NCBI RefSeq assembly: GCF_026151205.1
Contig: NC_087080.1
Location: forward strand, 2,647,096-2,707,095
Direction: 5' to 3'
From: Bolinopsis microptera
Lineage: Eukaryota > Ctenophora > Tentaculata > Lobata > Bolinopsidae
Length of the DNA: 60,000 bases
Shown here: positions 4,836 through 60,000 of the stretch, piece by piece
How positions within the stretch are numbered: position 1 is the first letter of the stretch
Layout of the letters: every line of letters begins with the position of its first letter
Translations under genes and position numbers: made by a program
The notes under the pieces: model-generated
Seen by the model: the letters and a program-made list of their open reading frames with translations, nothing else
The model's database searches: none
What the model was told of the DNA's origin: nothing

Positions 4836-5705
4836 TAATACTACTTTAGATAGACGAAAAGTTGTACATGAATAATGAGAAGTCTTATAATGCACTCACT
4901 GCATTAAAATAGCAGCAGTAAATATGATAGCCCAAAAAACTCTGTTTTTGAGCACAATTCCGTTTGTTAACCCTAATTGGTGGTGTTGAAAACCCAAGTT
5001 GCTTACTGCTTTACTGAACCCAGAAGCGGCCCAAACCCGCACAAACATTAAATACAGTTAGGCAATACCAGACAGTGTGAAATTACTGGTGCACGTATTT
5101 GAGTACATTATTATTATTAAATCTAAAATAGCTAATAATTTAATAAATTATTAACAGGCCCCTTAACGTGGGCAATAATATACGCTTTATAAATTATATA
5201 AACAAATTGCAGTATATTTTTCCAATGTTGTTAAGTGTCTCTTTAGATCTGTTTTGGTGTTTTGTGGGAGTTCCCACATTTGTTGGTTGAGAATGCTCAA
5301 CATAACATACATGATGCTTGACTGCTTTATTGACCCGGACAGGCACCGGGGGCACACATCCCAACACCAGTGCGTTGGGACATAGTGTTGGTCTGCTTCA
5401 GGATGTGTTAGATCCTAGAGAAGCCGCCATCCCCTCTACTGCTTTAGCTCAGCGGCAGCATGAGCCCTGGTTTCCTGCCACATTGGTACCTCTGAAAGTA
5501 CAGAAAAGTGGTGGATTTCGGGGTCCAGGATCCTCCCTCTTTAATCTTTACGGTGGTGTTATTTCTCTGAGATGTTTGCAGAGTCTTTATTTTATGATCT
5601 TTCTAGTTTAGTTGGATAAATCCTGGAGAGCATCATTTTGACCCCAAAGAAATTCGACTCTTCTAATGAATGCTTTTTGTGTGCTGCTTTTTGTTAACAC
5701 TTCAT

Positions 5706-7510: not shown

Positions 7511-8872
7511 CAAGTAAAAGACTATAACCAACCTTAGTAATCGAAATCGTTGCTTTGCTTTGCAGAGCAACGTTCTGCATAAAGCAAGAATGATACTGGA
7601 TAGTTTGCGCGTCGAATACCTTCGATTGAGCCGCTATTATACAAAACGTGAAGGATTTTAGCGCGATGCACCACTGGGCCGCTACAATAGCATACACATT
7701 ATTTTATATCGTATATATTCATGTATATTGATATATTATTCATGAATCAGTAATCAATATTCAGCTTATTAGCGCGCATGCACAGGTGAATTAGCTAGGC
7801 TAAGCAAGACGCGCGAACACTTTTGCGCAAGCAGTTCAGCAATAAATCTTTACGCGCCTTCCGTTTACACAAAGTTTAACGTTTGTTATGGAGTTGCCGT
7901 CGTAAATTATGCGTTATCTTTATGTTAAATCAAGTCTCCTCCATTCGTGCAGAAATCTCCAGAAAACTTCAATTCTCTACTTGTTCATTAAATTGACATA
8001 CTATTATTTAAAACATTTTCAAGTTAAAATAATTTATTACTACGAAATGGTTTAAATAGTTGTCAAGAAGATAGTACTTGAACTTTTTCATCATAAGGTT
8101 AATTTGGGACCGAACCAAGGTCGTGTAATTATCATTCGAAAGTTTTTACATGAAACACAGAGTATGGATGCCGAAGATATCGGTAATTTTCTTAATTACA
8201 TCGCTTTTTCACACAACTATAAATTATGCGCTCATCGACAAATATTCCAACGCCACCTCTGCCTAGTGTCTATATTAACTTAGAAAGAAAACTGCATCTT
8301 TGGTTTATGTACTTAGCCATTATACAAATCTGAATTATAACAAATTTATATAGCATTCAAATAGTCTGATCAAAGTTAGAAGTCGTCAAAATCGGTATAA
8401 AAGTATAAATGTTTCTAAGTTCGAGCAGCTAAATTCGTCTGAATACTGTGTTTAAGCTCTTATAATCTGTACAACCAATACAAGGTTATCAAAGCTTTTC
8501 TGTAAACTTAGCAAGGAAATATTAAAATGGGTAATAAAAATAAGTTAAAGCTCTGATAATGGTTATTTAACAGCATGGCTCTGTTTTTGAGCTGCTCCAA
8601 AAACGGAACAAAGTAATTTAAATATTATCATAATAAATCATAACTGAATTTAACCCCTTTCCACGTAATTCAATTTAATCGTGAAGTCTTCAAACTGATA
8701 ACGAAACGATACAAGACTTATCAGGACACAAATTTCAATTGTCTTTCGTTTGTTGAATATGACATGAATCACTGCAATAAGTAAAAGATAGATTTATAAA
8801 TATCTCAAAGTCCTAGGCCCATAGGTCTGGAGCATCTCTGATCGTCAAGTCTATTGCCCTGCATCCGAGATA
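7511..8872. other. Intergenic downstream of the GPSM gene; no gene seen
   Basis: AT-rich, with short GC-rich words such as GCGCGC between 7770 and 7850. No long ORF, tandem repeat or transposon end is seen. The 3' UTR of the GPSM gene should lie in its right part. Confidence 0.55.
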
Positions 8873-11800
8873 TCAGCTGAAGAAGCTCTCCTCACTCTCC
8901 GTAACGCTCACGTTGCTCGGTGCTCCACGTAACTTGTTGCTGCGCAGCTGAGTCCAGATCTCAGAATTAGGTGCTACACGAGTGTTCGTCTTCAGCAGGT
9001 TCTGAGAGATGGGCGGCATATTGTTGGAGAATGTTCTGAGAGGAGCGTGATTATCTGCCCCCTCGTTCTTATTGAATCTCTTAGGTTTAGGTCTGACTGG
9101 AGTGTTGTGGTAGCCACGTATCTGAGATACGGGAGGGTAGGATGTATTGTTTATGGGCGAGGTAGAGGGGGATTTTATCTCCTCCTTGACGATGGGAAGC
9201 GGAGCACGCTGGTCGTCATATCTGTTAGCCATGTGCTTGTGGAGGAGCTCGAAGAAGTCCTCATTCAGTGACATGCCGGAGAAATGAGAAAAGTTAGTTT
9301 GACCAGTCTGAGCTGTGTGTGCAGTGCGGACAGATCGCACTGATTGGGTCATGTTGGTGTTTGAAAAGTTTTTAGATTTAGGTTTGAGATATCCCAGGCC
9401 AGGCTCCTCGGGGAGGGGTTCGTGAACTTGGGGTTCGCTGACCCAGTTGTTGTCGGGAACTTGTATGCGAGGTGGTCGAGGTGATGTGGTTGTGCAGGAG
9501 TTGCGACGTTCTCGTGCGAACTCTGATTTAGGGACGGTCGGTTTATCTTCCAGCTCACCATCAGGTCCAACCTCTACACCCAAGAAGTTACCTGTAGATA
9601 AAGCAGGGTTAGCATTCTAATTAATAAATACGATTATTAGTTAACTTTATAAATGATATCCATTTAGGTTTACACGTGTATAGTATGCAAGAGGAGAATC
9701 TTCTGATCTTCTTCCAATTTAAAAGTTAATCGATAAATCAAGAATACGAGGAATACGCAGTAAACACAAGCTATGAGTATGATTAAACTATCAAATCACA
9801 GACTAAAATCTCACCAATATCGTTGATCATCATTTAGCAGCAGCGGACGCGACATTGTCCTCCATTTCTGTCGCTAGATCGTAGAACTTTCTAGCATTAT
9901 CCAGAGCTTTGTTTAGGTGACCACTATTGCTGAAAACATTGGATAACATCCAAAATGCTCTTCCTTCCCCAACTTTATCACCTGAAAGAAGAAAATCATT
10001 AGATTTATTAATCGCAGAACACTGACCGAATATCCACTAGGTGGGTCAGTAAGCTGGTAAATAGCATACTGTTAAACAGAGCTTTCTAGTAGACTCACAG
10101 TTCTTAGATCTTTAGATCACAATAGATGGCATTGTGGCATTGTATCACCAGCATATACGGTAAGATATTTCCACTTAGAATTATATTCTTAGATCACAGC
10201 TAGAGTGTAACATGCTGTGAACCAAGTGTGCGCGTCTCTGTAGTGTTAAGAGATATGGAAATTAGTTGAAACATATTGTGTAGGGTTGACACTAGTCGTG
10301 TGCTACTAAGAAGCAGATTTCATCACCCGGATGATCTAGAATGTTCTGAATCATCGCCGTGATGATTCAGCAATTACAGCAGAGAGATATTTTGTTAGAT
10401 TTAGCTTGGGTTGACCAATTGCGGTCAAATTAGGGTCCTTTCAAGAGAGAGCTGTCGTGATCTTAAAACGTGTAACTTTCTAATTTTGTGATTGGGTGAA
10501 ATTAAGTTATCTACTCACCAAGTTTCTGAGCGATGCAGAGATGACGATTGTAGTATTCGGCAGCTTTCTGATAGTTCCCCACAATACTGTTGTTATTACC
10601 TGGCGGGTAAATAATTGTTAGGAACGATATTATAAGAGAGTGAAATTTAAAAACCAACGTTCGATAAAGGTATCGATCTAAAGAAAGTTTACAATATTAC
10701 CCAATAAGCATGTCAATATATCAAAAAATGTAACTTAAGCAGTATATTTATTATAACTTATTATTACTTGTTATAAGCTAAGTTGTTCCTACTAATTAGA
10801 TCTAATTAGTTACTCACCTAAGCAGTAGTAAGCTTGGCCCTGAGCGGCCGTGTCTCCCTGCTCAATAGCCACAGTCAGGAACTTCTTCCAGTACTCACTA
10901 GCTTCCTCAAACTGTCCCAGTAGGGCGTGGCACAGCGCTAGGTTACTGCAATTATATGGTTATTAGTTAAGTTACTTACTTATTGTTAATTATATGGTTA
11001 TTAGTTAAGTTACTGGAATAAGATATGTCTTAGTAAGTCAGAGCTAATTGCTCTCCCTATCATCTGTTGTACAATAATAAGGAGTTTCTCAAAATCTTTA
11101 ACACCCAAAAGTCATTGAAATTGGATACAGTTCTTTTCCTTCCAAGTTTTAATAATACCGTATAATATTCCAAGTTTCTATGTACAAAACGTAATAGTGA
11201 AAAAATATTTAACATAAGCCTGTCTCTCACCTGTAAGCTCGACGTTCAGCCACTTGATCACTATTCTTCTGGGCTAACAACAATCTCTTTCTGTAATAAA
11301 ACAATGCTTTGCTGTAGTTACCAAGCAGGTAATACACGTTACCAAGACAACCGCAAGCTTGTCCTTGCATCTTGATGTCCTTCAGATCCTCTCCCAGTAA
11401 CAGGTAATCCTGAAATTCACACATAATTATTATTTATTTATCTATTAGCTTCTAAAAAGCATGAAACACATCATATATGACTAAGAGCCAAAGCGGACGC
11501 TGCAAAATTGGACAGTGTTCTTAGTAAGTGTTTAACAGTAAACTGTACTGAGTAAATTATTCAAGTTAACAAATAAAACTGACATACCTGCAAATGATCC
11601 TGAGCCCTGATAAAACAGTTGTAAGCGTTAATCTGATCCTGAGACTCAGTAGCAATGTGTCTCCCCTGCATGTAGGCGACTACACCCGCGTTGTACCGGG
11701 CACTTGCTTCTGATTTCTTGTTCTTACTTAGTTCCGCTAGAGTCAGCTGCTTCTCAGCTGCTAGAGACGCTTCACTGTATTTTCCTGGATAAGATAAATG

Positions 11801-14923: not shown

Positions 14924-15838
14924 TCATGTAAGAGATCAACTAAAATCTAGATCATGTAAGAGATCAACTAAAATCTAGATAATGTAAGAGATCAACTAAA
15001 ATCTAGATCATGTAAGAGATCAACTAAAATCTAGATAATGTAAGAGATCAACTAAAATCTAGATCATGTAAGAGATCAACTAAAATCTAGATAATGTAAG
15101 AGATCAACTAAAATCTAGATCATGTAAGAGATCAACTAAAATCTAGATAATGTAAGAGATCAACTAAAATCTAGATAATGTAAGAGATCAACTAAAATCT
15201 AGATAATGTAAGAGATCAACTAAAATCTAGATAATGTAAGAGATCAACTAGTAATCTAGATAATGTAAGAGATCAACTAAAATCTAGATAATGTAAGAGA
15301 TCAACTAAAATCTAGATAATGTAAGAGATCAACTAAAATCTAGATAATGTAAGAGATCAACTAAAATCTAGATAATGTAAGAGATCAACTAAAATCTAGA
15401 TAATGTAAGAGATCAACTAAAATCTAGATCATGTAAGAGATCAACTAAAATCTAGATAATGTAAGAGATCAACTAAAATCTAGATCATGTAAGAGATCAA
15501 CTAAAATCTAGATAATGTAAGAGATCAACTAAAATCTAGATAATGTAAGAGATCAACTAAAATCTAGATAATGTAAGAGATCAACTAAAATCTATATCAT
15601 GTAAGAGATCAACTAAAATCTAGATAATGTAAGAGATCAACTAGTAATCTAGATCATGTAAGAGATAAACTAAAATCTAGATCATGTAAGAGATCAACTA
15701 AAATCTAGATCATGTAAGAGATCAACTAGTAATCTAGATCATGTAAGAGATAAACTAAAATCTAGATCATGTAAGAGATCAACTAGTAATCTAGATCATG
15801 TAAGAGATCAACTAAAATGTAGATCATGTAAGAGATCA
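14924..15838. repeat. 28-bp minisatellite, about 32 copies
   Basis: The unit contains ATGTAAGAGATCAACTAAAA followed by TCTAGATM. Copies are almost identical. One base alternates C, A, C, A over the first eight or nine copies, so part of the array evolved as a 56-bp dimer. A few copies have AGTAATCT instead of AAAATCT, and the last copies drift. It lies about 1.2 kb upstream of the GPSM start codon. Each unit has a donor-like ATGTAAGAG on the plus strand, with no transcript evidence. Confidence 0.95.
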
Positions 15839-17165
15839 GCTAGAGATACACTAGGAAGATCACCTTACTAAACACTATCTTGAGTCCCTGCCAATATCTC
15901 GTGACACACAGTTCCCCTCTCCAGTGTCAAGGTGTGTCCCGGATTATATATACAGTTAGTAACTGCGAGAATTGAGGCAAAAGTAGTCAGACAAGGAAGG
16001 AAACACGGTTAGAGGTGGGTAATTGAAACAAGCTTCTGTGCTTATTATTTAATTAATTAGATAATGAGAGGTTTACAGGAATTTTACAGGAATTTCCCAG
16101 TCAATTAGCCGCTAGATTAACTTTTAGAGGCCGGATTTACTGTAATAATAAACTGTTTTAATGCTGTAACGGTAAGATGTAACTATTTTAGCGATGACTA
16201 CGAGCAAGTACACAGAGTACGTCATGATACAATTATGATATCTATCACAGAAAAGTAAAATAGATTGCTCCTAGAAAATAAACGTTTACCAATACAAGTG
16301 AAACAAAAAGGACTATGTAAGAAAGGGCAATTTCGTTTACTAGGAGATGAGACAAGATAAAGTGATTAAGATAGGTCATTACAAATTACATTACATAAGT
16401 GTAATGTGTACACTGTGTAGAAGTATACTGTCAGGACTCAGGAGCTACAATATATTATACTCTAAGCAGTTGAACGAAGTCTAATTATATATAATCAATT
16501 CAAGGGATGATACTGCGTATATGCTGTACGGTTAAGCCGCACTCTACTATTTGCTACTTCAGTCAACGAAGTTCTAGAGGAGGTTCTATTTCAAAATTTA
16601 TTAGAAACAAATAATCCATGAAAGCAAAACCCGAACAAGCTACAACAATATCAGTGCATGGAAATAACCTAACAACATTCAACATGAATTTATATTAACT
16701 TTACAGACGAATTCCAGGAGCAGCCCACGCTATCGTCTGGCGAGATACTGGCTAAATTCCTCACTGTCGTCTAGACACAAGGGTACAAGTAATACACATC
16801 ACCATGGTGACTGGTGATATGAGGGTGATGTGAGTACCTCAGTACCAGACTGATATGAGATCTGGGTGATCTGAGATGAGGAGAGTAGTTAACCTCAGTC
16901 CATCAGCCGGGGCTAGTCCGCCAGCTGACACCCCCATCATTGCATCCCAGCAGAAAACGTAAGAGTGGGATAGGTGAGACTTAAGTAGCTGATTACGATA
17001 TATAATTATTGCTGTGGCCGAATATGATGTATATCTGAGTAGCAGCTCATCTATCACAATTCAAATATTTTAATAAACAACTTATACTGCTACAATGTTA
17101 TAAAACTAAAGCAAGAGAACACTAAGTAAGCTTTTGTCCCAAACAATTGATACTTTCCGCAACAA
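15839..17165. other. Intergenic, no gene seen
   Basis: AT-rich sequence with only short ORFs. A 72-codon minus-strand ORF at 16839-17057 has no recognisable features. Confidence 0.5.
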
Positions 17166-38465: not shown

Positions 38466-41400
38466 ATGTCTGCTTCAGCGGTATTCATCCTGGACCTCAA
38501 AGGCAAGGTGAGTGAGCTGTAGACTACAGACCTCTAGTTTTTAAATCTCTTTACTTATTTTGGTAATACAAGTACCTATTTCCCTTAAATCTAACTGACC
38601 AATTGTTTACAAACTCCTGAGCACCAATTAACATACTATTTGTACAGGTATTGATATCACGAAACTACAGAGGTGATATCCCTATGTCAGAGATAGATCA
38701 CTTCATGCCACTCATCACTGAGGTATGTGGTAATTAGAACTAGTTTCATGTTCATTAACTTGACCTTGCTTAATTAGCCGGTCCCTTACTGTTTTTACAA
38801 ACACCGACCTCGTATTACGACTGAATTTGAAGATCTGTACAGTGTACTCAGTACTGAACCTACCAAACCTGGTAATCCTGGTTATAGTGGTATTATCCTG
38901 GTAATAGAGCTAGCAATAGCTTTTGCTAGTATGTGAGCGATTTCTGTGTTAATAATGTTACAACGAATCCAATTGTGGTGTTTTTCAATCCTTGCAAAGT
39001 TGCCTCATCTCGATGTGAAACATTTTCCGCGTTGTTGACTTGCTCAATAATTAGATATGATATTTATCCCAATATTCCTTTTATTGAATTAAAAGTTTAA
39101 CTTTTGCTGATAACATTTATATGCCTTCAAGATTCATAAGAAGACCGTGCCATTCTACAGTATGGTTTCTTGAGACTTCGTTAATTACATTATGAGTAGA
39201 TGTGGATTCTGGCGGGGATGTGATACATATTTTTAGACACGTGTCAATATGTCTCACCTCCCACCAAAATCATATCTATAAACGTCACACAAGCATTAAA
39301 AATACGCTTCGCCGATAGGTCGAAGAGGAGGGAACAGTAAGTCCAATCCTCCGTCACGAGAAAACCACATTCGCGTACATCAAATACAGCAACCTGTACA
39401 TTGTGGCTATGACGAGGACTAACGCAAACATTGCTCTGATATTCGTGTATCTGTACAGAATGGTTCAGGTATGATGTCCATAAATTGTCTAACTTTTTAA
39501 ATCATTGATTAACAGCAAATATTTTTTTCTTAAATCATAATCAGATTTGGGGGACGGCTTTTAGAAACTTACTCGAAATTTGAAGCACTGAGTATTTATT
39601 TAAAATTTAGATAAAACCAACGATTACCTAGTACCCAGAATATTGCATCTCCAGCACGGGTTACAATGATAAATACACAGTTCCCTTGTTATTAATACAA
39701 ACTCATGAGACATGCACTGCACTTGCCAGGCGTTTACGGAGTATTTCAAAGAAGTTGAGGAGGAAAGTATCAGGGATAACTTTGTGATTGTGTACGAGTT
39801 GCTGGACGAGTTCATGGACTTTGGTTATCCTCAAACAACAGACCCTAAAGTTCTTCAAGAGTATGTTTCTGTTGAATAACTATGTTCTATTTTTACCTAA
39901 CTATGTTCTATTTTTACTCTTGTTCATAAAAATTCATGATCTTAAATCAAATCAAATAAAATAGTAATGACACAAACATTATCACACGTAATCATAAATA
40001 TTTCTACAAGAATTTATTGAAATGCCAAACGGCTTATGTTATAACCTTGAAAGCTTCAATAAGATCACCACGTATACATTACGCCGCTCTTATGACACTG
40101 TTTTAATCCTTACATGCATTTAATTGTGGTACTACCTTAGCAGTTAAAATCAATTGCTAAGTTATTAAACAAGTAAACTGTAATATTGAACAGTGTTAAG
40201 ATACTCCCTCAATGCAGGTTGCTAAGTTATTAAACAAGTAAACTGTAATAGTGAACAGTGTTATGATACCCCCTCAATGCAGGTTGCTAAGTTATTAAAC
40301 AAGTAAACTGTAATAGTGAACAGTGTTATGAACTCATACCCCGCCCTCAACGCAGGTTTATCACACAAGATGCCCACAAAATGGAAGTAGCCCCGCGGCC
40401 CCCACCGACTGTTACCAACGCCGTGTCCTGGCGACCTGAGGGAATCAAATATCGTAAAAATGAAGTCTTCCTGGATGTTGTTGAGAGCATTAACCTACTG
40501 GTGAGACATTTTATTATCAGTTTTAGCATCAATATTAACTTTCTGTTCCTACTGTTCTCACTGTTCAAATCAAGCTAAAGATGTAAAGCTTCTATTGTGG
40601 TTATTAATGCCTCATTGAATGCGAGTTATTGAAATTTGGGAAATTTATCTTAGAATTCAGCCACGTGTTTCATCGTGTCCCCCTTACAACACATCAAACA
40701 CTTCAGGTATCAGCCAAAGGGAACGTTCTACAAAGTGAAATTGTGGGATCTGTGAAAATGAAAGTCATGCTGAGTGGCATGCCTGAGCTGCGGCTAGGTT
40801 TGAACGATAAGATACTGTTCGAAAGTACTGGAAGGAGCAAAAGTAAAGCAGTGGAGTTGGAAGATGTCAAGTTTCATCAGTGTGTCAGATTGTCCAGGTT
40901 AATTAAATGTGAACCAACCCATTTTGTATGTTTATCACAAGACATAAAATCAATATTTAATTCTCCATGCTGTGTCTTGAATGCCGGCCCACCTATTGGT
41001 CTTGATTTCACAATCGAATGTCATCCAGGTTTGAAAACGATCGTACAATATCGTTTGTGCCTCCTGACGGCGAATTTGAGTTGATGAGCTACAGGCTGAA
41101 TACGCAGTCTAAACCTCTGATGCTGATAGAAAGTGTCATTGAGCGTCATTCTCACAGCAGAGTTGAATACATGATTAAGGTAAGTGCGACAGAAAATAAC
41201 GTTTTGTTAAATCGAATGAAACTATGCACATCTTGATGTACTTAATTTATTGTAAATGCATAGTATGTGAACGTTTATGTTCTCAAACGTTAATATAGTA
41301 TACTCATGTTCTCATTTGAAAGGTGCATGTACGCACTATCGGAAGGGTCTTCTTGACAATTTTGCGGAACACGCGAAATGATTACATACATCGAAAATAA

Positions 41401-44400: not shown

Positions 44401-47400
44401 GAGAAAGAACCTTAACTATCGCTGGTAACGTTCTACTCGGACCCCGGTATTCTAGCTGCAGATGTATATCAAGAATACAGAATGATCACGAAGTAAACCT
44501 TGATACGTAATTATAATTCTCTGCAGAGAAACAATAGGCATAGAGAACATTTGTCGATGAAATATCGGCTTGTTAAAGGGCAATGCCAATATTGCAATTG
44601 ATTCTATAACAAAGCATTAAACAATAAAGCACTCGATAATGCTATCAAAGTTTTCTATTTTTATCTTCGAAGTTCGAATTTTACCGATATTAATTTTATT
44701 GAGGATTTGTCATGACTCAACGTTTCTGCATTTTTGGAAATTAAATTCAATTAAAGATATTGTAACTACATGAACTAATGATATTGTAACTACATGAACT
44801 ATATAATGATGATGTAACAAGGTTGCATAGCATCTAAGGAGCATAGGAGCAAGTATGCAGAGTACAGACAAATATTACTTCTATTATCTTGCCAAATTTA
44901 TGATTTTGAAAAAGTTATAGATTATCGTGATAAAAAAATTGTACCGATAATGGCAACTCTATTAAAAACTGAATAGTTGAGTACACGATAAACAAACAAA
45001 CAAGTAAGCCATTATAAGCCACCCTGATAAGGATCTATGATTTTTTATATTATATGTCCTACAAGTGATATATGCGAACCTCTGCTTCTTCAATGGCATT
45101 AGTGCTAAGTGCTGATACACGTGCCCCGTGTCTGGCAGATCGCTATAATTACACTCATCTTGCTCGCCATTGTAAGATAACGAAGTCTGCTATACAAATA
45201 TATTTACCGGTGATGTAGGCTCATTGCTCAATTATAGTATATTACATTTTGAACTGATGCAGTAAACATGACATTGAAAACGGTTTCAATGTTGTCGCCA
45301 TGGTTCTTTACTATAGTCTCAATAAGTTGAAAGAATTTTCCAATTATATTATAATAATTTATAATTTTACTTTATTATAAACGTGGACCCCTGTAATAAG
45401 AGATGGAACAAAATAGCTTTATAAACTGGCAACTCGCCAACTCGCCCTTATTGTAACGACTAAAGACTAAAGACGGTGCAGCGGTGAGGTTATCCATATT
45501 TGTTTTGACACGTGGTAACGGAAATAGGTTTTGATTGGACACTCTGGAAGACGTTTATTGGTTAATCACTATCACGTATCACGTGTCAAACAATGGTTCG
45601 TCTCTCCACCGGTATCCGAATCTATCAAGTTCAACGGCGAAAATATTGATCATTCCGAAATTAAATGTAAGAACTTTCGACAAGGAAACCGACTGATATC
45701 AAACGAAAGAGAAAACGGGAAATTTTATTCGGGAAATTACATTACCGATATTTGGCAAAATACTTGAAAAAATAATTTATAATAGGTTATATAATTACCT
45801 CAGTGCTATGAACGTGATTTATGATCGACAATTTGGTTTTAGAAAACAACACTCAACATCTCATGCCGTAAACTATTCTGTCAATAAAATACTTAATGAG
45901 ATTGAACAGAAAAATCATGTAATTGGAATATTTATTGATCTAAGTAAAGCATTTGACACAATTGAGCACGATAAACTCCTGCATAAACTTGAACACTATG
46001 GAGTAAGAGGTATTGCACTAAAAACTCTTGCTAGCTATCTAACAAACCGTAGCCAAGTAACTTCTTTTCAAACTGAAAAATCGGACAAGTGTTCAGTTGA
46101 GTATGGTGTACCCCAGGGGTCAGTGTTAGGACCTCTACTATTTCTGATTTATATAAATGATATTGTGAGCTCCTCAAGTTTGGCTGAATTCGTCCTGTTT
46201 GCTGATGATACAAATATTTTTGTGATAGGTCGTTCAGCACAGGAAGCTTTTGAAAAAGCTAATCATGTAATGAAACAGGTCAGTAACTATATGGAGTCTA
46301 ACAAGTTACATATAAATGCAGGGAAAAGTTGTTTTATGCATTTTCAGCCAGGTTTGTCAAGAGCAACACAGACCTGTGCTAGAACACGGCCCTTTAACAG
46401 GAATCTAACGATTTCAATAGATGGCAAAAAGCTAGAAAAAGTTCAATGTACAAAATTTCTTGGGGTGATAATAGACGAACAGCTATGTTGGGAACCACAT
46501 CTTAATCATTTATCTTTAAAGCTGAACTCCAGTATTGTATCGATTAAGAGAATTTGCAAATTCATTCCCAAATCTGAATATTTGAAACTATACAATGCTC
46601 TTTTTATGTCACATCTTAGCTATTGTATAAGTTGCTGGGGTGGGATCCCTAAACATAAGCTGAATAAAATCTTTGCTATTCAAAAACGATGTATACGACT
46701 GCTATTTGGTAACATTCCCAATTTTGATCATAAAGAATACTACTTAACCTGTGCACGTTCAAGAACTTATAACGAACATATGGCTAAAAAGAACTACTGT
46801 CTTGAACACACTAAACCGCTATTCACTGAGCAGAAAATTATGAACCTGGAGAATCTGCACATGTACCATACATTTATGGAGCTATTCAAAATTCTTAAAT
46901 TTGATGTCCCCCAGTCGATTAAAGATCTTTTCAAGTTCTGTCCTAGAAATGAAAAACTTCGTCTGATTGTCCCATTACTGAGGTTAGATATCTCCCAACA
47001 GAACTTTTTGTACACCTCTACGAAAATATGGAATGATCTCATCCCCTATGTATTCGAAATATGTGATGCTAATGTAGATGGGATAATAATCCCGGGGTCT
47101 TCCAAAAACTCAGACTTATCAGCCTCGTCAGGTATTATTAAATCTAACCTTAAAAAGCACTTGCTATCCCTCCAAAATCGAGGTGACCCTAATATATGGT
47201 AACTAATCTATATTATATCTCAAACTCTACATCTGGTACGGCTCTGCACACATGATATCTCTCTCTGCCATGAAACATGGCTAACCTTTCAAACTATGAT
47301 TTAAAACATAAACCTAAACTAAAACTCAACTGGGCTCTCCTATGTCACCTAACTAGACCAATAAGCAATTTTAGCTTAGATAATTATATTTTTCTATATT

Positions 47401-52976: not shown

Positions 52977-55900
52977 TCACCTACGTAAAGAATTAGGCGA
53001 TTTGGCACAAAATATCTGCTGGCTATTTACATAACTTGCACTAGGTACGTCTGGAGTGGTCGAGTTAATATTAAGGAAGGGACTTTTGATGATGTTGTTG
53101 CGATGGAGCGCCGTGACGAGTTCATTTTCTGAGAATGCACGAGCTCGTTCGTGTGGATCCACAAACTGGTTCACGTGGAAATTTCCCCGATCTTCGGTTA
53201 CATCGTCCTTCTTGTCCCACCTGCGGAGACAAGGTATTTTTGGGATACGGTCATGTGATTGCTGTACAAGAATGTGTCTTCTGCCTATCTTAAGTCTTAA
53301 TTTGTTCTAAGAAGCACTGATAGTAATTTGATGCGGAATGTCAGAGGTGGACGAGTGATGTTTGGCAGTTTCACAAATGTACGGAATTCAAGCCGGCCAA
53401 GCTTCTTAGAACACGCAATCGATTATTTTACATTTATGTATAATGTAAATATACATCATTCCTTTTTATTGATTGTAAGGAACCTGTGACTAGCAGGGCT
53501 AACAAGCCCTGAAATGGTGACACCACCATAAATTCGTGTGATAGCGTTTTAGGTGCAGTCAGCTGTATAAGCCGGCCCATAAGCAGGCTGCAACCAATCA
53601 AGCGGTGCATGTGAGCCAAACAGGCCATTAACCAAGTGACGAGATCACTGACTGAGTGCTCGGATCACGTATCCGATGAGTTTTGAAATGGTCATAACTT
53701 AGCCATATTTTAACCAATGAACTTGAAACTTTGGGAAAGGTTTTCAATTATCAAGCCAAATGTGTGCAAAAAATTTTGAGTTCTTAGCTTAAAGCGTTCT
53801 CATTTTATGAAGACAATAGTGAAAAAGAGGGAGTGTCACGCCACGCCCACTGTAATTGGGCGTGGCTTACGAAACTTTCAGGAAATCTAAGTTTGACCCA
53901 TATCTATAATCTCTGAAATTTTGGTGCAATTTGGAGACGAATTACGTGAGTTATTAAGAGGTTGCGTGTGGGTAGTCACTTATGGGCCACCCTGTATGTA
54001 TATCAGTTATCAGATGTACCGGAACAGTATAAAAGTAAGAGGCCAGGTAAACCTGTCGATGAAAGCATCGAGAATGAGGGCTATGATAACATTAAGAATA
54101 AGTAGAACGCAGATGATCCACCATGATATGAAGTAGTAGGTTGACCACCAGTCTCCTCGTGAGTAAGAGAACGCATCTGTGGGATACATGATTAGTTTAT
54201 AGTAAGTTGACCACCAGTCTCCTCTAGAGTAAGAGAACGCATCTGTGAGATACATGATTAGTTTATAGTAAGTTGACCACCAGTCTCCTCTAGAGTAAGA
54301 GAACGCATCTGTGGGATACGTGATTAGTTTATAGTAGTAAGTTGACCACCAGTCTCCTCGTGAGTAAGAGAACGCATCTGTGGGATACATGATTAGTTTA
54401 TAGTAGTAAGTTGACCACCAGTCTCCTCGTGAGTAAGAGAACGCATCTGTGGGATACATGATTAGTTCATAGTAAGTTGACCACCAGTCTCCTCTAGAGT
54501 AAGAGAACGCATCTGTGGGATACATGATTAGTTCATAGTAAGTTGACCACCAGTCTCCTCTAGAGTAAGAGAACGCATCTGTGGGATACATGATTAGTTC
54601 AGTAGTAAGTTGACCACCAGTCTCCTCGAGAGTAAGAGAACGCATCTGTGGGATACATGATTAATTCATAGTAAGTTGACCACCAGTCTTCTCGTGAGTA
54701 AGAGAACGCATCTGTGGGATACATGATTAGTTTGTAGTTAGTTGACCACCAGTCTCCTCTAGAGTAAGAGAACGCATCTGTGGGATACATGATTAGTTCA
54801 TAGTAAGTTGACCACCAGTCTCCTCTAGAGTGAGAGAACGCATCTGTGGGATACATGATTAGTTTATAGTATGTTGACCACCAGTTTCCTCTAGAGTAAG
54901 AGAACGCATCTGTGGGATACATGATTAGTTTATAGTAAGTTGACCACCAGTCTCCTCTAGAGTAAGAGAACGCATCTGTGGGATACATGATTAGTTTATA
55001 GTAAGTTGACCACCAGTCTCCTCGTGAGTAAGAGAACGCATCTGTGGGATACATGATTAGTTTATAGTAAGTTGACCACCAGTCTCCTCTAGAGTAAGAG
55101 AACGCATCTGTGGGATACATGATTAGTTTATAGTAAGTTGACCACCAGTCTCCTCGAGAGTAAGAGAACGCATCCGTGGGATACATGATTAGTTCATAGT
55201 AAGTTGACCACCAGTCTCCTCTAGAGTAAGAGAACGCATCTGTGGGATACATGATTAGTTTGTAGTAAGTTGACCACCAGTCTCCTCTAGAGTAAGAGAA
55301 CGCATCTGTGGGATACATGATTAGTTTGTAGTAAGTTGACCACCAGTGTCCTCGTGAGTAAGAGAACGCATCTGTGGGATACATGATTAGTTTATAGTAA
55401 GTTGACCACCAGTCTCCTCGTGAGTAAGAGAACGCATCTGTGGGATACATGATTACTTTATAGTAAGTTGACCACCAGTCTCCTCGTGAGTAAGAGAACG
55501 CATCTGTGGGATACATGATTAGTTCATAGTAAGTAGACCACCAGTCTCCTCTAGAGTAAGAGAACGCATCTGTGGGATACATGATTAGTTTGTAGTAAGT
55601 TGACCACCAGTCTCCTCGAGAGTAAGAGAACGCATCTGTGGGATACATGATTAGTTTGTAGTAAGTTGACCACCAGTCTCCTCGCGAGTAAGAGAACGCA
55701 TCTGTGGGATACATGATTAGTTTATAGTAAGTTGACCACCAGTCTCCTCGAGAGTAAGAGAACGCATCCGTGGGATACATGATTAGTTTATAGTAAGTTG
55801 ACCACCAGTCTCCTCGCGAGTAAGAGAACGCATCTGTGGGATACATGATTAGTTTATAGTAAGTTGACCACCAGTCTCCTCGAGAGTAAGAGAACGCATC

Positions 55901-58900
55901 TGTGGGATACATGATTAGTTCATAGTAAGTTGACCACCAGTCTCCTCTAGAGTAAGAGAACGCATCCGTGGGATACATGATTAGTTCATAGTAAGTTGAC
56001 CACCAGTCTCCTCGTGAGTAAGAGAACGCATCTGTGGGATACATGATTAGTTTGTAGTAGGTTGACCACCAGTCTCCTCTAGAGTAAGAGAACGCATCTG
56101 TGGGATACATGATTAGTTTGTAGTAAGTTGACCACCAGTCTCCTCGTGAGTAAGAGAACGCATCTGTGGGATACATGATTAGTTCATAGTAAGTTGACCA
56201 CCAGTCTCCTCTAGAGTAAGAGAACGCATCTGTGGGATACATGATTAGTTCATAGTAAGTTGACCACCAGTCTCCTCTAGAGTAAGAGAACGCATCTGTG
56301 GGATAGATGATTAGTTTATAGTAAGTTGACCACCAGTCTCCTCGTGAGTAAGAGAACGCATCTGTGGGATACATGATTAGTTTATAGTAAGTTGACCACC
56401 AGTCTCCTCTAGAGTAAGAGAACGCATCTGTGGGATACATGATTAGTTTTAAATAGTATGTTGACCACCAGTTTCCTCTAGAGTAAGAGAACGCATCTGT
56501 GGGATACATGATTAGTTTATAGTAAGTTGACCACCAGTCTCCTCTAGAGTAAGAGAACGCATCTGTGGGATACATGATTAGTTTTAAATAGTATGTTGAC
56601 CACCAGTTTCCTCTAGAGTAAGAGAACGCATCTGTGGGATACATGATTAGTTTATAGTATGTTGACCACCAGTTTCCTCTAGAGTAAGAGAACGCATCTG
56701 TGGGATACATGATTAGTTTGTAGTAAGTTGACCACCAGTCTCCTCTAGAGTAAGAGAACGCATCTGTGGGATACATGATTAGTTTTAAATAGTATGTTGA
56801 CCACCAGTTTCCTCTAGAGTAAGAGAACGCATCTGTGGGATACATGATTAGTTTATAGTTAGCTGCTGTATCGAATTTCTTCGACTTTTAAAGATAACAA
56901 TAGATAGGGGTTACTACAGAGAGGTACTGGTAGTGTAAGTTACTTTTTAAGACACGTGGCAGTGATCAACCGATCAGCATTCAGCTTGCCGTACCAGCCT
57001 CATCTAAATTCATTGTCGTCCAGTGCAGTTGTCTGAACAATTTATATCACCAACTTACTGACGATAATGTGCCAGTTGTTCACCACCATCAGCGTTAAAA
57101 GAGTCACTATCGAAGCAAAGAAATCGTCAAAATTCAAAGTGTAGTAATCTGAAATAGCCTTAATTATGTTAAAGCATCACCAGAATTCAAATAAAACAGC
57201 GTTAAACTCGACACAGTTGCATATAATTGATCAAAATATCACGGTGTCTGACATAGGTCAAAGCCATTTCATACCAAGATTCCAGTAGGTGCCACATTGA
57301 GAAGCCAGGGTCTGGTTATCCCTCACAGCCGATTTGTTGTGGATCTCTGAAGTTACATCCGCTGAGAACAACTCCATCCCTATTATAGCGTACACGTACA
57401 TCAGAGCCATCAGTATTCCTGCGAGTTTCTTATGTGATCTCTATAAAGACATCCTCTCTTTAATAAGCTGGCCATAGGGTATCGGGGAAATGACAGTATA
57501 TTACTATTAGTATTAGTTATAGGACTGAAACGAAGTTTCATAATCTTGCTTTATATTGACGAATATGTAAAATAGTTAGATTACCCAAATAAGAGGACAT
57601 GTGCTTGATGAGTGTTACATAGGTCTTCACAACGACCCTCAGTCGTTTGACCTGTTGAAAAAGAAGGCACTCTAAAATTATTTAGTTTTATAAGTTTTTA
57701 GCTACGATACAGTGTAAACATGGCTACTTTAATTACTAACACACATGAAATAGAAAATGACAATCACGATTTACTTTGAACCAATACCACTTAACATTTA
57801 ATATAATGATATTTCGAATCCTAAAACAGTAATTCCGAACCTGCATGACCACTCTGATGACTCTAAAACAAATACAAAGGTTAATACTCCGCAAGATATT
57901 GGTAGCAGCCAGATCCTGACCGTCATCATCAAGGTCTCGAGTGTAAAAAGTTGTCATCAATATGGATACAACAACCGTCAGGATCAAGTCGTAACAGTAG
58001 GAATATGTTCGGATGTAAACTTTGGGTCCAACACCCATGAACCGTAACACCTAATTAAATCTAACTGCAGTGGTCAATACTTAGCGCCTTATTAGTAATC
58101 GGTCAAAATATCAAAACAATTTTAGTTTAAGTTGTATATCCATTATGTTCGTTTTTAAGATGCATAACAACTTGAATTAGATAAGATGATGATTATTGTT
58201 ATGGTTCAATGATAGTGAAAGATAATGTTGAAAGAACTTCTTTGATCTTGGTGCTTGTTCTACAATTAAATTATTTTCACGAAATCCATCATACTTGTTC
58301 GATAATGAAGTAGATTGTGACTATAATGTTCATGAAAAAAACGAAATCTGCTCCGGAACGAACTCCATCTTCATCAGGGTTTTGGGCCAGAACGACTAGC
58401 AGTGATACCGTGTTCACAAACGCAAAAACTGTTCCGACAACCTGTAAATAAGTTAGTATTGTAATCCCTTATACTACAAATTATCCTAAACAAATCCATC
58501 AGTGCTAACCCTGGCCGGGTTTGGATCTGGTGAGATTTGATAAGCTTGTAAATTAATCGTCTTAAGAGTTTAGTTTGGAGATTCTTAGTGAGTGAGGTCC
58601 TTATAATCCCAAAAGTCAGTAGCTCATTGTAAACTTTGTACTGTACCTCAAAAAAAGGATGTAGAACAATCTTCTTTATGTAAGGAACCTCCCATGTGTC
58701 TCTTCTTAAATATGCGTCTCGTTTTAATAGTGCGTCTGCCGCATAGTCCGTCTCGACATCTGGGGGAGATAACAAAACCGAGGTAATCCAGAATCCATAC
58801 CAAAGTGTTATGTTTAAAGGAAGATTCTACAGTGGAATTTTCTAGAACATAGTAGAGTATCTTATAAGTTGGAATATACATGATTTAGTTTAACGGCCGA

Positions 58901-60000
58901 GAATTGCTCACCGAAAAATAGTTTCACAAAGTCTTGTTTGTCAAGATGATCAGTTTGCATCCTCTTATGGTCGTTCAATTTATCGTACAGGAAATTTTTA
59001 TACTTTCTGTTCATTCTGATGCAATATAAATGTTGATCAATTTCATAATGATAACCCACTTATTATATACTATGTATTATGTTAAACTTTGAGTTCCAGT
59101 TCATGGGAATTTCCATAGTCAACTATTAAGAATTATGAAATATTCTGACTCTCTGCATCCCCCTCTTACTCCCAATTACCTAAGGTCGTCCAAAATGTCA
59201 AGAACAGCTGAAACCTCTAAACACTTGTTGGTGGGATGTGTTGGTTCCTCATCATTCATGTCATCCACAATCAGACAGTCGTCCGAGTCAGCAGTCACCT
59301 CCCAATTTCGATTAGACTCGAGGCTTTTCTCGTGGGAGGTAGTTCCTGCAAAAACAATATAAATTATGGAGGTATTATAGGAAGAGATATCAGAAATTCC
59401 AAAGTTTAAAAGTAAAGCCGTTCATTTTTATACGGTAAGCTGTAAACACTGATAGTTGATACCCACGATTTCTGCCGACCCGTGGGTTTGTTAACACTTC
59501 GAACGCAGCTCGTAAAGCAAGGCTTCGTCTTTTTATAAGCTCTTTCACTGAAACCTTGAAATTGTGCCGAAACTGGTTGTATATTACCGCCAGCAGCAAA
59601 TTCATCAGCCCGTAGGTTCCTGAATGAATAATAAATATTACCGAGCCATAAAATTCAGTGGGGTGTTATGCCGAACACATTAGTGTCATATTAATTTGGC
59701 ACTGACTACTAAAATGATGCAAAATGATTTCCACAATTTAACTCACCTAACCAGATATAAGCAATGAAGAAAATAAAGTAAAGTCTGTTAACTTTATAAG
59801 CTGGAATCATAACATCTGGATTATTTGCAGTTGTTGTTAGAACTAAAAAATTCCACAAGCTATCCTCCATAGTTTCAAAGTATTCCTTGATAGTATCAGA
59901 AAAGAGAATGTGCCCACTAAGTCCAAATACCACCACATTCAGTGTCAGTACCACCAGCACTCCGATCACTTCGGGTAAACTTCGCCTCACTGCATTCAGC
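52977..60000 (-). CDS. TPCN: Two-pore cation channel (TPC), 3' part of gene
   Basis: TPCs are endolysosomal or plasma-membrane cation channels with two six-helix domains. Twelve minus-strand exons are seen: 59747 to beyond 60000, 59434-59619, 59180-59345, 58912-59015, 58647-58759, 58295-58441, 57841-58050, 57585-57651, 57275-57440, 57059-57148, 54053-54176 and 52977-53220. The first gives pore I (LVLTTTANNPDVMIPAY). Later exons give domain II S1-S2 (VVGTVFAFVNTVSLLVVL), S4 (LRSINLCICFRVIRVV), S5 (LAGILMALMYVYAIIGMELF), filter II (TLMVVNNWHIIV), S6 (FISWWIICVLLILNVIIALI) and a cytosolic tail ending NSLRR. TPC1/TPC3 seem closer than TPC2 by filter I. The exon 59180-59345 adds an acidic linker. 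Phases join everywhere except between 57585-57651 and 57275-57440, which are off by one base. The S6 exon acceptor has been amplified into the 54133-56862 array. Confidence 0.9.
53640..54000. mobile_element. Possible mariner-type remnant in a TPC intron
   Basis: Ends at 53984-53998 with GGGCCACCCTGTATG, close to the terminus of the element at 48415. A matching left terminus was not found, so the copy is truncated or diverged. A tract reading AACTTGAAACTTTGGGAAAG lies inside. Confidence 0.4.
54133..56862. repeat. 66-69-bp coding minisatellite built from the TPC S6 intron-exon junction, about 41 copies
   Basis: On the channel's strand each unit contains ACTAATCATGTATCCCACAG, a branch-point-like motif and 3' splice site, followed by the first 15 codons of the S6 exon (DAFSYSRGDWWSTYY, the first Asp being Asn after real splicing). 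The copy nearest S6 runs into the true exon at 54053-54176. Unit lengths are multiples of three and almost all copies are open in the exon frame: two continuous ORFs cover the array, split by one in-frame TGA near 54599. Some copies carry AGTTTTAAATAGTATG spacers (69 bp). Three copies have CCCACGG, which destroys the splice AG. No transposon feature is present, so this is local tandem amplification. Confidence 0.95.

Follow-up and report, generated by a model that had tools for sequence, protein, structure and literature searches.

We describe here a tandem array in which the 3' splice site of one exon, together with the start of that exon, is present in 41 copies inside a two-pore channel gene, TPC2, of the ctenophore Bolinopsis microptera. 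The array lies in a window of 60,000 nt (NC_087080.1:2,647,096-2,707,095), the whole stretch of DNA that was analysed; coordinates without a locus name are positions in this window, and (-) denotes its minus strand. Our full reading, which we hold to be probable, is that of a splice-site-spanning minisatellite whose last acceptor is mostly used while the other acceptors serve as decoys. What we say about the splicing of this array is deduced from sequence and from analogy with other systems.

The acceptor array and its host gene

Tandem Repeats Finder (TRF) places the array at 54134..56859 (-), with a period of 66, 41.1 copies, a match of 95% and a score of 4783. Splitting it at a GATGCG marker gives 41 acceptor positions, and the 40 units between them are 66 bp (n=34), 69 bp (n=5; units 1, 4, 6, 37 and 38) or 67 bp (n=1; unit 34) long, units 1, 4 and 6 being identical to one another. 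This confirms the first-pass annotation of this DNA, which had proposed about 41 units of 66-69 bp. Every unit combines the last 21-23 nt of intron 10 with about 43 nt of the start of exon 11, and the last one continues directly into the exon at 54176-54053. The same annotation gave each unit a branch-point-like motif and a CAG acceptor, which holds for most units and not for all of them. A CTAAT motif stands ahead of 39 of the 41 acceptors and is altered ahead of acceptors 22 and 34, and AG is kept at 38 of the 41, with CGG, in which GG replaces AG, at acceptors 14 (55966..55967), 17 (55768..55769) and 26 (55174..55175), all on (-). On a matrix built from nine acceptors of the same gene, which themselves score 6.6-9.9, the array acceptor scores 7.8. 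The suggestion of a competing-acceptor array is thus a fair hypothesis as sequence logic.

Its highly identical units, arranged head to tail and within the range of about 10-100 bp, make the array a minisatellite or variable number tandem repeat (VNTR), and units that carry the splice site of the adjacent exon, with AG in 38 of 41, make it a splice-site-containing one. The units do not hold an acceptor and a donor per copy, as in Dscam-like alternative-exon arrays, nor the AG|GT of recursive (ratchet) splice sites, since 41 of 41 read G|ATGCG past the acceptor. Nor are they an in-frame coding repeat, as the frame is lost in unit 34, where a TGA follows. Searching the window for Rfam families and tRNAs gave no hits, and neither did a COX1 search of the assembly. 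In the 264.65-Mb assembly we found 42 matches to the unit among the best candidates scored, every one of them at the TPC2 locus.

The effect of unit 34 (54579..54645 (-)) on the reading frame is central to what the array can encode. This unit has one extra base, and for this reason any of acceptors 1-34 runs into an in-frame TGA; 31 of these keep their AG and lead to the stop, and 3 are dead. It had been supposed that all units are multiples of three and keep the frame of S6, which unit 34 contradicts. Only acceptors 35-41 (7 of 41) read into IIS6, and they would add 134, 112, 90, 67, 44, 22 and 0 residues, respectively. The idea of variants longer by n x 22 residues from distal acceptors therefore survives for six acceptors, with 22-134 residues, and fails for acceptors 1-34. 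Judged by sequence, an intact longer channel could come from at most the six acceptors of units 35-40 (54177..54578 (-)), upstream sites that leave IIS6 intact. The proposal that the nearest acceptor gives a normal channel was borne out, as acceptor 41 adds no residues. Unit 34 is the only interruption of the S6 frame in the array, which is otherwise open in stretches of 762 and 216 aa.

The host gene was read from the sequence as a model of 11 exons. All 10 introns are GT-AG, the joined frame is open for 550 codons, and the modelled protein (550 aa) matches human TPC2 with both channel domains (E 3.3e-79), the next-best match being a TPC1 (E 9.9e-40). By these similarity scores, taken without a tree, it is closer to TPC2 than to other two-pore channels, in agreement with the earlier placing of the amplified acceptor-plus-exon module inside a two-pore channel gene. 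Domain II matches Pfam Ion_trans (2.2e-33). In protein terms the array lies between filter II (VNNW) and IIS6. It is flanked by exon 10 (pore helix and filter II with VNNW; 57059..57148 (-), donor GTAAGT at 57058) and exon 11 (end of the pore II linker and IIS6; 54053..54176 (-) when joined to acceptor 41, donor GTTTAC at 54052), and the borders previously assigned to these two exons agree with the model. Intron 10 would be 226 nt long through acceptor 1 (56833..57058 (-)) and 2882 nt long through acceptor 41 (54177..57058 (-)); introns 1-9 measure 121-244 nt. The remaining exons, also on (-), are exon 1 of the model (pore I; 59747..60000, continuing to 60082 beyond the window), exon 2 (about IS6; 59467..59619), exon 3 (59180..59345), exon 4 (58912..59015), exon 5 (58647..58759), exon 6 (about IIS1-S2; 58295..58441), exon 7 (about IIS2-S4; 57841..58050), exon 8 (57585..57651) and exon 9 (about IIS5 and turret; 57275..57418), the segment labels being inferred from the TPC2 alignment. 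Further exons are seen 5' of the model. Elsewhere in the assembly, 453 stop-free nucleotides at G000 C8:1858333-1858785 give a channel match to residues 19-177 of the TPC2 query, a candidate paralogue that may be intronless.

Origin and variation of the units

The array is bordered by GCTAACTATAAACTAATC on the left and CAACCTACTACTTCATATC on the right, with ACTA at both borders, and it is this shared ACTA that leads us to infer a single slippage as the founding step. One 66-bp tandem duplication would have spanned the intron-exon border, its ends set by a pair of 4-bp ACTA repeats, one in intron 10 and the other about 40 nt into exon 11, and would have doubled the 3' splice site along with the initial ~43 nt of exon 11. 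Later slippage or unequal exchange would then have raised the number of copies to 41. A unit length that is a multiple of three needs no selection, as it arises by chance in one case out of three. We thus regard the array as a splice-site-spanning minisatellite; its sequence, borders, unit variants and single locus are observed directly, and the route by which it arose is reconstructed from them.

Compared with their consensus, the units differ by 19 distinct substitutions and 3 types of indel in a patchwork pattern. Five of the six length-variant units differ by 3 nt, and the A-to-G change that kills an acceptor is present in 3 units. The exonic and intronic parts have similar numbers of changes per site (0.27 and 0.33). 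Nine of all 19 variants are silent in the S6 frame, where 4.2 are expected (p 0.0099). When the variants are divided, in splits chosen post hoc and with small numbers, those shared by more than one unit (n=8) include 6 silent ones over the whole unit (expected 1.74, p 0.0013), compared with 2/8 and 1/8 in the two other frames, and the private ones (n=11) include 3 (expected 2.5), the difference between shared and private counts giving a Fisher p of 0.07. The same post hoc caution applies to the division of the unit, in which 7 of 12 variants in the exonic 45 nt are silent (expected 2.58, p 0.004) and the bias is absent from the intronic 21 nt (2/7, p 0.67). With silent bias in the exonic part only, exchange between the array and the constrained functional exon seems a better fit than translation of the units, with the proviso that the numbers are small and the split was made after the fact. 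As a cause of the bias, translation of the array is weakened by the unbiased intronic part.

Private changes, the +1 of unit 34 included, are found in 2 of the 19 units 1-19 and in 9 of the 21 units 20-40 (Fisher p 0.034, post hoc). As they are few in units 1-19, the end of the array away from the exon body looks the youngest.

Choice among the acceptors

The transcript of this gene would offer 38 AG acceptors of near-equal quality, and acceptor 41 is most likely the one used most of the time. It is the sole acceptor joined to an exon of normal size (124 nt) with a donor, and two further points favour it, the conservation of the gene through exon 11 and the stop reached from acceptors 1-34. 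Provided that the gene works, its normal junction must be formed in useful amounts, since the TPC2 reading frame stays open and conserved up to and including exon 11. The upstream units would then be intronic decoys that bind U2AF and U2 without productive splicing and lower its efficiency, an effect that would grow with copy number over the 38 sites. If acceptors 35-40 were used on rare occasions, the resulting channels would have a linker longer by 22-134 residues, and rare use of acceptors 1-34 would yield transcripts with a premature stop.

A precedent is found in work on duplicated 3' splice sites (PMC5389562). In the parts of that study used here, simultaneous occupancy by U2AF and U2 is possible and inhibits splicing in vitro, and globin constructs in which the upstream site is followed by 14, 55 or 205 nt of exon are spliced very inefficiently and to the downstream site only; its authors also cite earlier reports that the length of exon past the upstream site influences the choice. 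Like the TPC2 array, these beta-globin constructs (PMC5389562) have duplicated acceptors that compete, and in one set the upstream acceptor is followed by a short stretch of the exon; they present two sites in vitro, whereas TPC2 presents 38 in a natural gene.

Several points weigh against our reading. The decoy effect is transferred by analogy from in-vitro globin constructs. Counted over the whole unit, the shared variants are biased towards silence in the S6 frame, which could also be a trace of past translation of the array. The bias also leans on one site: without position 18 it falls to 7/17 for all variants (p 0.067) and to 4/6 for the shared ones (p 0.028). Moreover, under intron definition the 226-nt intron ending at acceptor 1 might be preferred to one of 2882 nt.

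Intron definition would point to acceptor 1 and exon definition to acceptor 41. If acceptor 1 were used, exon 11 would become 2780 nt long and contain the TGA of unit 34, and the allele would be largely off through nonsense-mediated decay or would encode a channel without IIS6. The ordinary size of the resulting intron, comparable to introns 1-9, the near-equal strength of the acceptors and the transcription of acceptor 1 before the others all speak for this outcome. We nevertheless consider it unlikely, given that the rest of the gene is intact and its conservation extends through exon 11, that an internal exon of 2780 nt would be unusual, and that constructs with duplicated 3' sites were spliced to the downstream site in the experiments drawn on here (PMC5389562). 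The array might instead be adaptive or regulated: several of acceptors 35-41 would be used in a graded manner, a family of channels would carry 0-134 additional residues in the segment from filter II to IIS6, and the output would be tuned by copy number. Acceptors 35-41 do all reach IIS6, their strengths are nearly equal and the shared variants are biased towards silence in the S6 frame. Yet only 7 of the 41 acceptors are capable of this, and the intronic part, which would then also be translated, has no silent bias (2/7). No common use is evident either, as the genome's other three splice-site arrays, described below, shift the frame or hit stops, and regulated use seems to us quite improbable.

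Two further explanations concern the nature of the array itself. That the whole of it is exonic, with the +1 of unit 34 a sequencing or assembly error and some 900 extra residues in the protein, could draw on the two long open stretches in the S6 frame on either side of unit 34 and on the change by 3 nt in five of the six length-variant units. Openness is automatic when one open unit is copied, however, the intronic 21 nt give no sign of codon constraint, and an insert of 900 residues between filter and IIS6 is hard to square with a working pore, so that a coding repeat appears highly improbable. Copy number could also have been inflated by mis-assembly, as the array is known from one assembly only and units 1, 4 and 6 are identical. 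But the array lies inside a contig of 17.4 Mb, its units vary in a patchwork of 19 substitutions and 3 indel types, and further long minisatellites are found elsewhere in the genome, which leaves an artefact very unlikely.

Splice-site arrays in the genome and in other systems

To place the TPC2 array in context we surveyed 254,004 bases, consisting of the window and loci L005-L024. TPC2 was preset, L005 is its neighbour and the rest were chosen by myosin or channel matches, which makes all rates rough; searches with PF00133 (11 matches) and PF00501 (17 matches) were kept outside the survey. There are 80 arrays scoring at least 80, of which 53 have a period of at least 20. The check for splice sites covered part of the arrays in these loci, and those at L006 6284, L009 4338, L010 8186 and L022 3263 were read by eye.

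Three further splice-site arrays were found. In the same window as TPC2, a 65-bp unit in 2.8 copies (40154..40335 (+)) repeats the acceptor of an AP-1 mu exon that starts at 40356; the acceptor occurs in three copies, each unit including no more than about 3 nt of exon, and the exon scores 29.6 bits against Pfam Adap_comp_sub, just below the cut-off of 31.6. L005, the gene adjoining TPC2, belongs to the AMP-binding family (34.4 bits, cut-off 29.9) and has at 5206-5549 a 144-bp unit in 2.3 copies with three CCTCAG acceptors, each followed by the exon's first ~11 codons. Read from either of the two upstream acceptors, the frame hits TAG after 16 codons. The third is a donor array in the myosin gene at C2:3177387-3177578 (L020 4543-5427, minus strand; G000 C2:3172000-3181999; TRF match 100%), in which the last 31 nt of the P-loop exon and the donor GTAGGAGAG occur 22 times at a spacing of 40 bp, the exon itself giving a profile match of 42.3 bits. 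This exon-plus-donor array is the mirror image of the TPC2 array. The first of its donors is at L020 5397, and the second and third shift the frame, as 40 is not a multiple of three. In each of the four splice-site arrays the expected product comes from the copy that adjoins the exon body; the outer copies tested do not yield it, with the exception of TPC2 acceptors 35-40. It is conceivable that such arrays are a recurring class of variation, in which acceptor-plus-exon (TPC2, x41) and exon-plus-donor (myosin, x22) arrays serve as reservoirs of decoys, variable in copy number, that determine how fast the host gene is spliced, with an added ladder of 0-134 extra residues from the last seven TPC2 acceptors; as a whole, we judge this decidedly unlikely.

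An enrichment of arrays at exon ends was considered and rejected. Among the 41 arrays with a period of at least 20 in the 19 loci L006-L024, 2 touch exon ends where 4.8 are expected, in a test that used 75 placed exon matches of 76. For all periods the count is 6/66 with 9.3 expected, and an initial pass over five loci gave 7/39 with 6.9 expected. A crossing copy within 3 kb was found for 4 of 144 myosin exon ends (72 of 73 myosin matches) versus 54 of 600 random points (Fisher p 0.009), so that exon ends are, if anything, poorer in repeats. The four crossing cases are the L020 splice-site array, an intronic 8-bp array by a presumed acceptor in L008, and copies at L010 4479 and L016 6356. Splice-site capture thus looks like an occasional by-product of abundant minisatellites, and there is perhaps selection against it.

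Other repeats were noted in the surveyed sequence. In L008 (1151-3041) the 8-bp GTTACTTG is repeated about 240 times in a myosin intron and stops about 13 nt before the presumed acceptor. A 48-bp unit in 2.0 copies (L006 6284-6381) begins just within the intron at the presumed donor of a myosin exon. At 14926-15842 of the window, a 28-bp unit in 32.6 copies contains the donor-like ATGTAAGAG, and the array at L009 4338 contains an acceptor-like TTTCAG; no exon was identified alongside either. L005 also holds an inverted repeat (8640-8995 and 9014-9369) with arms of 356 nt, 97% complementary and separated by a gap of 18 nt, and the window has at 45697-47202 an open frame of 501 aa that by eye resembles a LINE reverse transcriptase. 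Two adjacent myosin exons in L006 (3013-3204 and 3256-3486) correspond to one range of the profile (105-167 and 102-167), an arrangement like that of mutually exclusive exons. Giant frames of more than 1000 aa around myosin exons were looked for and dismissed, as L006-L010 hold one frame of at least 250 aa (351 aa, in L008, on the strand opposite to myosin).

The closest known counterpart is the VNTR in intron 18 of human ABCA7. In the accessible part of its description (PMC5954066), the 25-bp units start with a donor GT and include the donor of exon 18, the repeat is polymorphic with about 12 to 427 units reported, its length tracks exon 19 skipping and lower expression, and one retained unit leads to a frameshift and a premature stop. 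Both this VNTR and the TPC2 array are minisatellites at an exon edge with a splice site per unit and many copies. The human repeat lies on the donor side, and exon sequence is not mentioned in that part of the source, whereas the TPC2 array lies on the acceptor side and includes about 43 nt of exon; splicing and population effects are documented there, and the TPC2 array is known from the sequence of one assembly. In the potato RdRp gene, a tandem duplication over an intron-exon border led to intron gain through an exonic GTAAG donor, according to the section of that study consulted (PMC4974935). A branch site, an acceptor and an exon start were copied by a border-crossing duplication there as in TPC2, but the potato case is one duplication with a new intron and TPC2 has 41 units. 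The best donor-like GT in the TPC2 unit, GTGGTC, has a moderate score of 5.1 (2.5-9.6 for the donors of the gene), and its use would leave an exon of 28 nt and an intron of 38 nt, below the size of introns 1-9, which makes new introns within the array unlikely. The prawn lectin repeat, from what is given in the extract available (PMC7536079), is a coding repeat within one exon. In the open-licence literature searched we noticed no acceptor-plus-exon array. NAGNAG and other tandem acceptors likewise provide several acceptors for one exon; NAGNAG acceptors are separated by 3 nt, and they do not form repeats in which every copy brings a branch site and the start of the exon. The TPC2 array thus differs from known splice-site repeats in its acceptor side, its inclusion of the exon start and its 41 units.

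The TPC2 array is striking, its origin is likely ordinary, and its value lies in being a natural test of splice-site choice. How the spliceosome chooses among similar sites is an old question, which has mostly been addressed with few engineered sites. In TPC2, 38 acceptors of almost identical sequence occur naturally, each followed by an exon start and nearly all preceded by a branch-like motif, and the myosin gene provides 22 copies of one donor with an exon end. Both arrays bear on whether a splice site is chosen for lying close to its partner or for being attached to the exon body. They also suggest that splice-site VNTRs like that of human ABCA7 are not a human oddity.

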